Of a stretch of DNA of 64,000 nucleotides, positions 39,101 through 43,604 are shown one piece after another. Position 1 is the stretch's first letter; each line of letters begins with the position of its first letter. The stretch is taken from contig NC_058342.1 of the NCBI RefSeq assembly GCF_905475395.1, positions 36,290,140 through 36,354,139 on the forward strand, in the 5' to 3' direction. The DNA is from Chrysoperla carnea (lineage: Eukaryota; Arthropoda; Insecta; Neuroptera; Chrysopidae). The notes below the pieces were generated by a model that saw only the letters and a program-made list of their open reading frames with translations, was not told where the DNA came from and did no database searches. A program made the position numbers and the translations under genes.

Positions 39101-40358
39101 CCCGTTGCTGATACTCCATCTAGAAGTGTGGTATTGTTGTAATAATTATAATAATAGCTGTTGTTTATGTGATAATGTGATTGTTGAGATTGTTGTTGTG
39201 ATTGTTGATAATGGTAATGTTGTTGATATGCTGTTGAGGAAGTTGATTCTGAAACAAGATTTAATAAACAAGTCAAAACAAACAATTGACAGAGTTAATT
39301 GTTGAAATACAATGTATAGACAGTGTTGATTTCACTGCCACATTACATACAAATAACTGATATTCCCATATAATACATACTATATAATTTGCGCCCTCAC
39401 GGGTAAATAGTGATGTTTACGAAAAAAAGTTTCTAAACAAAAGTTGTTTATTTTATTGTAAGGAACATTTATATTTAAACTTTTGTTCTATTTCTAACGT
39501 TTTACAAGATGGATCCCAAAACCCAAAATTCAATTGACCTATATTGCTCATTTAACGAACTTAGCCTCATACGTTTTAGGTCCTGAGCATGCTTTAACAA
39601 TTTCTTGATATCTCTTTCCGTTTTATAGTTATCGTGTTGCCAAATGGACAAACAGACAGACAGGGTATAAAAATAAACAAACACTTACGTTTCTTATTAT
39701 TTAATAAATACATCTGTTGCTGTTGATTGAAGCGTTGTTGTTGTTGTTGCTGTTGATGCGTGGCTGATGGTGTACTTCCAGATTGAGACACTAACAAACT
39801 AACACTTGGAGATTGAGAAATCAACGTGTGATATCCTTGATCAAAACTTGGACTGTGGCATTGTTGTTCCTGTTGCAAATACTTGTTCGTCGAATGATGG
39901 AATCGTCTACGATGACTCGATTGATTACTCGAACAATTAAACCGTTCAAACTGTGCCTGTTGATTACTTGAACAGTTAAATCGTTCAAATTGTGCCTGCT
40001 GATTACTTGAACAATTAAATCGTTCAACTTGATTGTGTTGAACTGTGGGACTCTTGAACCGTTCAAACTGTTCAACTTGCTGTTGATTGAAGTCATCGTT
40101 AAGACTGTTGTCGCACACGCCACGAGCACAACATCGATGTCGTTGATTCGGATATTCGTTGTTCGAATTCGAGGTCAACGATAACGATTTAAATATTAAA
40201 TTCGATTCCTCCAATTGTTGATTCGTTGTTGAATCATTGTTATTGTTGTTTGAAGTACAGTGTGTGCTAGGAGGTGAACGTCGGCCTAATTTTGCTAATG
40301 GACAATGTTTGATTTGTGTAAATTCATTGTTGTTTAATGAATTTTTTCCACTAATCAT
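36108..40358 (-). CDS. FBXL7-like F-box/leucine-rich-repeat protein
   Basis: Substrate-recognition subunit of an SCF ubiquitin ligase. The exons are 40358-39689, 39248-38379, 37665-37276 and 36643-36108, totalling 2,466 bp and 821 aa, with all junctions in phase. The first ATG gives MISGKNSLNNN. The N-terminus is Gln/Asn/Ser-rich with three 13-aa units of the type ERFNCSSNQQAQF. The F-box is near ITMLTDNLLLKIFKWLN...CTNVCKRF. Cys-type LRRs follow, ending in KKFCKRCVIEHTNPGFF, which is nearly identical to the vertebrate FBXL7 C-terminus. Human FBXL7 is 491 aa. The extra length is low-complexity sequence at the N-terminus, after the F-box, and between the LRRs (Gln/Ser/Asn/Gly-rich, encoded at 37440-37665). 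Introns contain a repeat copy and a tandem duplication. The gene appears intact. Confidence 0.93.
36683..37215. repeat. Tandem duplication of 317 bp in FBXL7 intron
   Basis: ATCGCAGCTGAAAAG begins one copy at 36683 and the next at 37000. Both run through AACTTTATGACGTCATCAGA and GATAAACCAAGTATGTAATC. The second copy is cut after about 215 bp. Each holds the perfect palindrome TGACGTCA. It is probably a duplicated interspersed repeat. Confidence 0.85.
37726..37741 (+). repeat. Run of 16 G in FBXL7 intron
   Basis: Sixteen consecutive G residues in an otherwise AT-rich intron. The length could be misread by the sequencer. Confidence 0.9.
38102..38277. mobile_element. Possible small MITE with TACAGG ends
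   Basis: Starts TACAGGGTGTTCTCT and ends ...TTACATCCTGTA, giving 9-bp imperfect inverted ends 176 bp apart, within an FBXL7 intron. The TIR is too short for certainty, but ACAGGGTGT ends also occur at 45337 and 58706. Confidence 0.4.
39384..39675 (+). repeat. Dispersed ~350-bp repeat, copy D
   Basis: Fills most of the FBXL7 intron 39249-39688. It starts at TTTGCGCCCTCACGGGTAAA, shares the ATTGACCTATATTGCTCATT block with copy B, and ends CAGACAGACAGGGTATAAAA just 5' of the splice donor on the opposite strand. Part of the interior is missing compared with copies A and B. Confidence 0.7.
39900..40035 (-). repeat. Coding 39-bp tandem repeat in FBXL7 exon 1
   Basis: Three units of 39 bp encode the 13-aa motif around ERFNCSSNQQAQF, with a fourth, partial unit upstream (FERFKSPTVQHNQV). 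The repeat keeps the reading frame because 39 is a multiple of three. The copies are near identical, so the expansion is recent. Confidence 0.85.
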
Positions 40359-40724
40359 TTTGAATGTACAGAAACAAATTCGTTTAAGCAAATTTATGCT
40401 TCATGAAACGAAGGTGTATGATTTTCTTTAGTTCGTATCTAATCTTCGACAATGTACAAATATGTTGATGTTTTGAGATGTCATCTAGAAACCGAAAAAA
40501 TGATAAATTAATCAACTAACAGATCGCCGCAAGTCTCCTATTTTCTCGCTTTTACCTTGAAGAAGACTATATATCAATTTTGTCTAGAACGGGGTGAAAT
40601 TTGCGAGGTTTACGCGTGGTTGGCATCAAAAAATTCGTTTTTATTTAACTTGACTTATTTGAATTATCGAAATCCTACTATATGTCCAAGTATGTTACTT
40701 GAATGTACAACTTTCAATTAATAA
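40359..40724. other. 5' flank of FBXL7-like gene
   Basis: Presumed 5' UTR and upstream DNA. I see no clear TATA box or initiator and no further coding exon. It ends at the giant palindromic element. Confidence 0.5.
40716..40724. repeat. Left flanking duplication AATTAATAA
   Basis: Nine bases identical to 42179-42187, touching each end of the palindromic element: a candidate target-site duplication. Confidence 0.7.
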
Positions 40725-42178
40725 CGGTGTGGCTATCCGCACAATACCGTCTACGGTCTAGACGGTAGACTACCGTCTATACGGTATACCGTATACCGCA
40801 CAACGGTGGTATACCGCACAATACCGTCTACGATCTAGACCGTCCACAGTATACCGTATACGGTCTATTTAGACGCGGTATGAAATTATTTTTGCCCTTT
40901 TATACCGTGGGGCCCTTATACCGTGCACGGTATACTTTTTCACGGTATACTCTTTATGCCGTCGAGCCCTTATACCGCACACGATATGTTACATTTCTGT
41001 AGAATACGCTTTCCCATCTGTATAATGTATACCGTGGACGAGACTATGCCGCACACGGTATATTTCATTTGCTTCAAATAAGCCTTCCAATCTATATTGT
41101 GTATACCGTGGGCGAGACTATACCGCACACGGTAAAATAATTTCATACCGCGTCTAAATAGACCGTATACGGTATACTGTAAACGGTCTAGACCGTAGAC
41201 GGTATTGTGCGGTATACCGTCTATACGGTATACCGTCTGTACGGTATATCGCCTACACGGTATACCGCCTATACGGTATACCGCCTACACGGTATACCGC
41301 CTACACGGTATACCGCCTACACGGTATACCGCCTACACGGTATACCGCCTATACGGTATACCGCCTATACGGTATACCGCCTACACGGTATACCGTCTAT
41401 ACGGTATACCGCCTACACGGTATACCGTCTATACGGTATACCGCCTATACGGTATACCGTGTAGGCGGTAAAAGTATACGGTATACCGTATACTTTTTCA
41501 CGGTATACTCTTTATGCCGTCGAGCCCTTATACCGCACACGATATGTTACATTTCTGTAGAATACGCTTTCCCATCTGTATAATGTATACCGTGGACGAG
41601 ACTATTGTGTATTGTGCGGTATACCGTCTATACGGTATACCGTCTATACAGTATACCGTCTATACGGTATATCGCCTACACGGTATACCGTCTATACGGT
41701 ATACCGTGTAGGCGGTATACCGTATAGGCGGTATACCGTATAGACGGTATAGCGTATAGACGGTATACCGCACAATACCGTCTACGGTCTAGACCGTTTA
41801 CAGTATACCGTATACGGTCTATTTAGACGCGGTATGAAATTATTTTACCGTGTGCGGTATAGTCTCGCCCACGGTATACACAATATAGATTGGAAGGCTT
41901 ATTTGAAGCAAATGAAATATACCGTGTGCGGCATAGTCTCGTCCACGGTATACATTATACAGATGGGAAAGCGTATTCTACAGAAATGTAACATATCGTG
42001 TGCGGTATAAGGGCTCGACGGCATAAAGAGTATACCGTGAAAAAGTATACCGTGCACGGTATAAGGGCCCCACGGTATAAAAGGGCAAAAATAATTTCAT
42101 ACCGCGTCTAAATAGACCGTATACGGTATACTGTGGACGGTCTAGATCGTAGACGGTATTGTGCGGATAGCCACTTCG
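40725..42178. mobile_element. Giant palindromic element with 16-bp core repeats
   Basis: The outer ends CGGTGTGGCTATCCGCACAA and, on the other strand, CGAAGTGGCTATCCGCACAA match except at two bases. The arms (left 40833-41213, right about 41765-42147 in reverse) are essentially identical over about 380 bp by eye. The left arm carries an extra 77-bp segment (40756-40832). The core has two blocks of 16-bp units of the form CGGTATACCGYCTAYA, about 16 at 41210-41465 and about 10 at 41614-41765, the latter reversing orientation near 41700. A 118-bp piece of the left arm (40930-41047) is repeated at 41488-41605. It is more GC- and CpG-rich than its surroundings. No real gene is inside. A 9-bp duplication suggests transposition, perhaps Mutator-like. 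Family unknown. Confidence 0.9.
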
Positions 42179-42187
42179 AATTAATAA
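42179..42187. repeat. Right flanking duplication AATTAATAA
   Basis: Matches 40716-40724 exactly and touches the right end of the palindromic element. Confidence 0.7.
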
Positions 42188-43604
42188 TCCTGTATTCAGC
42201 TAAAATTATTTCTTGCGTAAATTTTGGGACACAATAAATTTATGGTAACCATACATACCTTAATTTCTAATATTTGAAGAAATTCATACACGAATTACCA
42301 TCACTTGAATGAAATTTCATATTAAATGATCGAATCAAGAAAACTTTTTTTATGGCATTGAAAAATTGTCAAAATATCACAGAAGAGGATGTTTTCGAAC
42401 ACGACTAGTTAAGTATACAAAAATGTACTCAAAAAAAAAAAAATAAGGCACAAAATTATTTAGTTAAATTTATGATCATGTTTCGTTTTCACTGTAATTA
42501 ATAAATATTTGATATGAATCACATAATTTTATTAAACAGTCAAGTAATAGATCTGGACCAATTGATTTGTAAATAACCATTTACAAATCATCATTTACTT
42601 TTCACATGATACATCTGAATCTGAATATTGTAAATATTTTTTAATGAATTATGAATGAATTTAAATAAATGAATTATTAAAAATATATTGAATATATTAA
42701 TTACGATCACATATTATTTATTTATATTAACTTATTTATTTATAAACAATTAGAATTATTTAATAATATTGACACTAGTTATTAAAAAAGTATGTCGATT
42801 GTCGTCTGTGTCTGTCTAATATTATTATGTACATTCTTACCAACCTTAAATCTCTAAACTAATAATCATTTTGTGAAATATTCAACAAGTGTGGTTTTAT
42901 TACCAACATAAGGTACATCAACATCATACCTTTTATATTTTAACTGATTTTTTTCCATCACCCATCGTACAAAACTCAAAAGAGTTTCATTTTCTTCGTA
43001 AGGATTCATTTAAATAAATATCTACTACCGTTTCACCTTAATCGGCTCTGTTGTGTTTGGTCGAAATGAGCGCTCCATTACTTTGCGGAGCAATTATCAG
43101 GTTCACGTATTCCCAATAAAGAACAAAAATTTACGAATGATATGTCAGTACAGCCTGCTATTTCTTGACTGGCTTTTCAGTTTAAGTGACTCTAGTAACT
43201 ATATATACCCGACTGTGGCCTTTAGCAATATTACTCTCTAGAAAATAATTATCCCGGCTGCAGAAAGTACGCATTAAAATGATATCTCATATGACGCTTG
43301 ATTTGAGCGTAAATTTAGGGTTCCATCTAGGTGAAAAAAATAGAGTTATGCCCAGCGACAAATTATAAAAATGAGCGACAAAAAAGTTTATTAATATCAA
43401 AAGTGGAAATAAACAAATGGCTGATGAATGATTATCAATTATCAGTGCCAAAAAATAATTGGTAAAGCGCAAATAATAACAAATCATCGCTTTATAGTTG
43501 ATGCGCAAGCCTGAAATCCTGAGAACGGGGTGAATAACGGCGTGCATGGGGTGCATAAATATTTATACAATTGAGTATGTGCAATCGAAAGCTTGTTAAT
43601 TTTC

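Follow-up and report, generated by a model that had tools for sequence, protein, structure and literature searches.

A dispersed foldback element family of Chrysoperla carnea with 9-bp target site duplications and probable Mutator affinity

The window considered here is the whole stretch of 64,000 nucleotides of Chrysoperla carnea DNA that was analysed. It lies on C6, one of six large contigs (140.0, 100.7, 94.1, 77.5, 76.4, and 38.6 Mb) in a searched genome of 559,487,470 bases and 337 contigs. The published length of the X chromosome, as given in PMC10116181, is 38.62 Mb vs. 38.56 Mb for C6, which would make this contig the X. Frames on the minus strand in the neighbourhood encode F-box and leucine-rich repeats. 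The nearest open frame, also on the minus strand (39594-40400), has no Pfam match, and ~325 bp past its end begins the foldback element whose parts are collected in Table 1. A sequence-only reading had placed the ends of this element at 40725 and 42178, and direct reading confirms a genuine palindrome with those ends and with AATTAATAA flanking both.

Table 1. Features of the foldback element and its flanks, in window positions.
Feature	Position	Strand	Remarks
Foldback element, 1454 bp	40725..42178	.	Terminals CGGT (left) and CGAA (right), each read inward
Target site duplication, left copy, 9 bp, AATTAATAA	40716..40724	+	From sequence; 13/20 family pairs exact
Target site duplication, right copy, AATTAATAA	42179..42187	+	Read from sequence
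Left end motif, GTGGCTATCCGCACAATACCGT	40729..40750	+	Genome and window motif search
Right end motif, GTGGCTATCCGCACAATACCGT, identical 22 bp to left	42153..42174	-	Genome and window motif search
Left arm, 402 bp, identical to right arm; inverted A-B-A' module	40814..41215	+	
Right arm, 402 bp, without mismatch to left arm	41765..42166	-	
First array of 16-bp palindromic units (CGGTATACCG with YCTAYA spacer), reversal ~41456	41210..41474	+	Limits by eye
Nested partial copy of the left arm, 97% to 40917-41047	41475..41605	+	
Second 16-bp array, reversal ~41703	41616..41770	.	Limits by eye

The arms extend over 551 nt at 96% complementarity (40814-41364 / 41616-42166). Compared base by base inward from 40814 and 42166, they show no mismatch over the first 402 bp and the first mismatch at offset 414. 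Each arm in turn forms a smaller inverted module, with an inner inverted pair at 40808-40892 / 41134-41218 (96%). The element had been described as a near-perfect 1.45-kb palindrome, a description that suits the arms but not the whole element, since the left end carries ~77 additional bases (40725-40813 vs. 42167-42178) and the core between the arms is asymmetric. A period-16 array is called over 41210-41822 (74% matches, 5% indels), a span that includes the nested copy. The 16-bp units do carry the 10-bp palindrome first reported for them, and all 24 occurrences of CGGTATACCG in the window lie inside the element. The array reversal placed near 41700 is also present, near 41703, together with another near 41456 (by eye). 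The nested copy exists too, although its length is 131 bp at 97% (40917-41047 / 41475-41605) and not 118 bp.

The element differs from its surroundings in composition, as had been noted, with a GC content of 0.455 vs. 0.31 in the rest of the window and a CpG observed/expected ratio of 1.83 vs. 1.08. Folding of its DNA gives a long hairpin at -752 kcal/mol, a single value obtained without a shuffle control. Rfam returns nothing at gathering scores across 40600-42300. Within the window, the end motif with up to three mismatches is found only at the two ends of the element and in none of 100 shuffles. The window contains 10 occurrences of AATTAATAA, hence the flanking copies are weak evidence of a target site duplication by themselves and become strong only through a test across the family.

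The search of the genome with the element ends that had been proposed finds further copies. Allowing up to two mismatches, the 22-bp end has 94 genome matches vs. 0 for the reversed control. These correspond to 74 sites, 20 with facing pairs of ends and 54 with single ends, and the two end motifs of a facing pair lie 71-2667 bp apart. Exact matches of the 20-bp end to viral contigs number zero. The sites are spread over all six large contigs (9, 19, 8, 14, 7, and 17 on C1-C6), with C6 holding 17 of 74 vs. 5.4 expected by length over six contigs (chi-square p 7.5e-7). This is a roughly three-fold excess on the X-sized contig, counted from well-kept ends only and without another repeat as control. 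The same counts place family sites near contig ends, with a median relative distance of 0.113 vs. 0.25 for a uniform distribution (p 1.9e-6).

Duplications at the insertion sites provide the family test. Exact 9-bp duplications flank 13 of the 20 facing pairs vs. 0 of 380 combinations in which left and right flanks were swapped, and no duplications of 5-8 or 10-12 bp occur in the 20 pairs. The 13 exact duplications are 96% A+T. Among the remaining seven pairs, two match at 7 of 9 positions and five at 5 or fewer. The two prove nothing, as 16/380 control pairs also match at 7 of 9, with a further 2/380 matching at 8 of 9. The earlier proposal of insertion as one unit is therefore borne out by the duplications of the family as a whole. 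Mutator/MULE elements generate target duplications of 8-11 bp, commonly 9, whereas a length of 7 bp is expected of P/Galileo elements. The length seen here, 9 bp, falls within the first range, and none of the 20 pairs match at 7 bp.

One of the five poorly matching pairs, the 71-bp pair, consists of facing ends left as a 79-bp remnant at C6:32.358 Mb (L066, C6:32358042-32359112, at ~481-590). Its flanks are mirrored without a direct duplication, 15 bp on one side being the reverse complement of the other side. Possibly an end and its flank were copied back on themselves, or a duplication-free insertion took place into a pre-existing palindrome.

The 4 bp outside the 22-bp motif may differ between the two ends of one copy, as in the window. 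Among 66 distinct ends in fetched loci, out of the 94, CGGT occurs 24 times, GCAA 12, GGAA 11, and CGAA 10, together covering 57/66; CGAC occurs twice and seven other 4-mers once each. Among the 13 copies flanked by exact duplications, 2 have identical 4-mers at both ends vs. ~2.8 expected under free combination, thus the four common terminals pair up between ends nearly freely.

Inverted arms are also present in three further copies compared (L053, L054, L062), so that long terminal inverted repeats (TIRs), as expected of a MULE, are not confined to the 402-bp arms of the window copy. As is characteristic of the foldback class, the inverted arms of the family are long and internally repetitive, and their modules vary. 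The two arms of a given copy are seldom each other's best match. In a comparison of 19 of the 20 pairs, leaving out the 71-bp pair, the best single collinear partner of the left half is its own right half in only two copies, the window copy and L054. In the other 17, among which L060 gave no own match, some half of a different copy scores higher. As each left half has a single own partner against 36 others, the chance rate of choosing it is ~1 in 37. A cruder, gap-ridden test of arm identity over 160 bp gives medians of 0.946 within copies and 0.937 between them. The family thus shows no sign of general arm correction, while the partner test does not measure shuffling. The identity of the arms had been attributed to recent insertion or ongoing arm-to-arm correction. 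What holds of this is an identity over 402 bp peculiar to the window copy, which the 2/19 result marks as a local event and which may reflect a recent inverted duplication or conversion; correction as a general process finds no sign in the family.

Predicted coding sequence joined to a family end is found at one single end, C2:3410546. Here the family end and ~250 bp of family sequence are followed by a predicted three-exon frame, located 469-1289 bp inside the terminus and reading inward, with GT..AG introns. The predicted product of 220 aa matches PF21599 ZSWIM3_N (E 1.9e-8, 35.2 bits against a cut-off of 27.8), and the first frame does so unspliced at 4.5e-7. Below the cut-offs it also resembles PF03108 DBD_Tnp_Mut (7.8e-4) and FAR1 (0.056). 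Only four genome places pass the ZSWIM3_N cut-off (11 candidates scored), and the chance of one lying within 500 bp of a family site is ~5e-4 (74 x 4 x 1000 / 5.6e8). The DNA of the gene recurs at one other place as a 760-bp fragment at 98% (C4:1411196-1411953), with no family arms within the 3.1 kb examined there. As no partner end was found in 6.9 kb read on the inner side of C2:3410546, the gene could be captured.

The sequence-only reading had suggested looking for a larger relative with the same ends and a transposase. One copy carries a predicted Mutator-type DNA-binding gene, but a catalytic domain was not found. Above-threshold genome matches to the MULE catalytic profiles PF10551 and PF21056 coincide with none of the 74 family sites. 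Inward reading of 26 of the 54 single ends over 1.5-3.8 kb, with C2:3410546 among them to 6.9 kb, likewise gave no copy joining these ends to a MULE catalytic domain. Six open frames inside longer copies (L053, L054, L062, L063) have no Pfam match over the cut-off, the best being zf-CHY at E 0.069. The link to Mutator therefore rests on the duplication length and the DNA-binding gene, without a catalytic domain.

The 14 genome places that match PF10551 comprise L069, L070, a place at C5:22.8 Mb, and a group of 11 at C1:138.28-139.40 Mb. L069 (1-3282, at C1:139.76 Mb) and L070 (C5:73.2 Mb) represent a second MULE, with TIRs of 33-bp tandem units. L069 has an uninterrupted 736-aa frame with a ZSWIM1-3 RNase H-like domain over the cut-off and MULE, FAR1, and SWIM domains below. 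As a source of the family it was rejected, since neither these ends nor the GGTATACC repeat occur in the 3.3 kb examined. Its DNA-binding region is not clearly alike either; the best pairwise match (E 6e-4) falls in the catalytic region and the N-termini reach 18 bits (E 0.49). L069 is for these reasons an analogue only. Another candidate, the PF21599 place at C5:27.05 Mb, appears by eye to be a C2H2 zinc-finger gene and has none of the 94 end matches nearby. This locus (L090, C5:27045600-27047600) holds a 412-aa frame, C2H2 zinc-finger by eye, with a ZSWIM3_N-type stretch at its start, and is possibly a host gene that has acquired a MULE-type DNA-binding domain.

The eleven MULE-domain matches at C1:138.28-139.40 Mb (L071-L079, L081, L082), close to the end of this chromosome-sized contig, resemble bacterial IS256-type transposases. 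One shares 73% DNA identity with Spiroplasma and Cardinium plasmid places, one of them annotated as an IS256 family transposase. Frames that by eye are IS200/IS605-like, group II intron RT-like, ankyrin-repeat, and RelA-like lie near these matches, and the RelA-like protein has distant matches only. It is possible that this region is an endosymbiont genome inserted in C1 or mis-scaffolded there. The eukaryote-type L069 sits further out on the same contig.

The searches directly reveal a dispersed family with common ends, 9-bp duplications, copies of unlike make-up, and a predicted DNA-binding gene. With high probability, the window element is a non-autonomous Mutator-like (MULE) foldback transposon mobilised by a Mutator-type transposase made elsewhere. 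Its assignment to this superfamily is strong, though short of proof, as no copy with these ends and a catalytic domain was found among the 26/54 single ends read inward. The transposase would bind the end GTGGCTATCCGCACAATACCG and, by analogy with Galileo, probably also the internal CGGTATACCG palindromes. The 16-bp arrays would then probably be repeated transposase-binding sites, and a palindromic unit would suit a dimeric binder. Having paired the ends, the enzyme would excise the element and, with cuts staggered by 9 bp, paste it into AT-rich DNA, leaving the 9-bp duplications. The protein encoded at C2:3410546, or a full-length relative of it, may be what moves the family. Between jumps the arms would be altered by recombination or fold-back copying, which is proposed as the reason that the copies are unlike mosaics of common modules. 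A foldback shape would leave arms prone to both processes, consistent with the unlike copies and with the mirrored remnant at L066.

Membership of a different superfamily of DNA transposons (hAT, Merlin, P/Galileo-like, or undescribed), with the Mutator-type DNA-binding gene as a captured passenger, is unlikely. It would fit the failure to find a catalytic domain with these ends and the presence of the gene in a single element copy, and a foldback-like shape also arose in the P superfamily, in Galileo as described in PMC3688188. However, the duplications are exact at 9 bp and at no other length from 5 to 12. The gene also lies just inside the TIR and reads inward, where a MULE transposase would begin, and the fragment is a transposase-type DNA-binding domain and not arbitrary host sequence. 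A distinct arrangement in which the 220-aa protein mobilises the family as a stand-alone binder is quite improbable. The protein would lack a catalytic part, the catalytic subunit would come from another MULE, and the arrays would act as a cooperative docking platform. Under this arrangement the four interchangeable 4-bp terminals would imply a cut independent of fixed terminal bases.

Exact 9-bp duplications at unrelated sites, together with common termini, argue against a satellite or host regulatory palindrome spread by recombination without a transposase. Such an origin is very improbable, despite the abundance of the 16-bp arrays, whose two-unit pattern has 532 genome matches (314 forward and 218 reverse). 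Some clusters among the first 100 array places listed, e.g. at C1:48.609 Mb, do lack an adjoining end match. An assembly fold-back artefact could likewise produce arms of 402 bp without a mismatch. This is hardly credible for an element with unlike ends (CGGT/CGAA), ~77 additional bases on the left, an asymmetric core, a flanking 9-bp duplication, and many further copies in the genome.

The probable Mutator-like foldback transposon identified here adds a well-defined lacewing family to the foldback elements whose tie to Mutator consists of target duplications and a protein domain. One perfect-armed copy among mosaics, a mirrored-flank remnant, an apparent X excess, and palindromic arrays make it well suited to asking how foldback elements are constructed and whether they seed satellites and inversions. 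Among the open papers listed, judged mostly by title, none reports this family, and those retrieved with its decamer are unrelated. The titles listed on Chrysoperla transposons and Mutator concern other elements, and among those listed on Neuroptera and MULE none concerns such an element.

The element had been said to resemble no family that could be named. This no longer stands, as its design is the Mutator/Foldback design of Tm1 and Tetris, and a Mutator-type DNA-binding domain is predicted in one copy that has the same end. In Tm1 of Meloidogyne, as presented in PMC3169594, the TIRs are composite, vary in length, and consist of short tandem repeats, the duplications are mostly 9 bp long, the terminal motifs are asymmetric, and the transposase is of the FLYWCH-MULE type. 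The lacewing family resembles Tm1 in these TIRs and duplications, in short non-inverted terminal motifs beyond the TIR, and in mostly non-autonomous copies with a Mutator-type protein in a rare one (PMC3169594). The Tm1 repeat consensus and the lacewing end also have TATCCGC in common, by eye and as a lead only. In contrast, the Tm1 account gives two terminal motifs of 7 bp and a repeat of 13-15 bp, whereas the lacewing family has four common terminals of 4 bp and a palindromic repeat of 16 bp, with a predicted DNA-binding gene only in place of the FLYWCH-MULE transposase.

Tetris (Tetris/DAIBAM) of Drosophila virilis was assigned to Mutator on its 8-10 bp duplications plus earlier suggestions (PMC4079207). 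Shared with the lacewing family are the foldback shape, modular rearranged copies, duplications of this size, tandem repeats within the TIR, and the failure to find an autonomous copy. According to the same account, its repeats (TIR-220) are not 16-bp palindromes and its structurally complete copies have no conserved open frames. Galileo, of the P superfamily in Drosophila, has long, internally repetitive TIRs whose repeats contain additional transposase-binding sites (PMC3688188), but its transposase is described as P-type with a THAP domain. Rehavkus is similar in its 9-bp duplications, in TIRs that measure 26-400 bp, in a minisatellite that precedes one TIR, and in its insect hosts, and differs by the PHD-finger transposase given as its feature in PMC6446971. 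The lacewing elements are accordingly taken as a new family of known design, that of Tm1 and Tetris, with the terminal 4-mers and palindromic arrays taken as its own marks.
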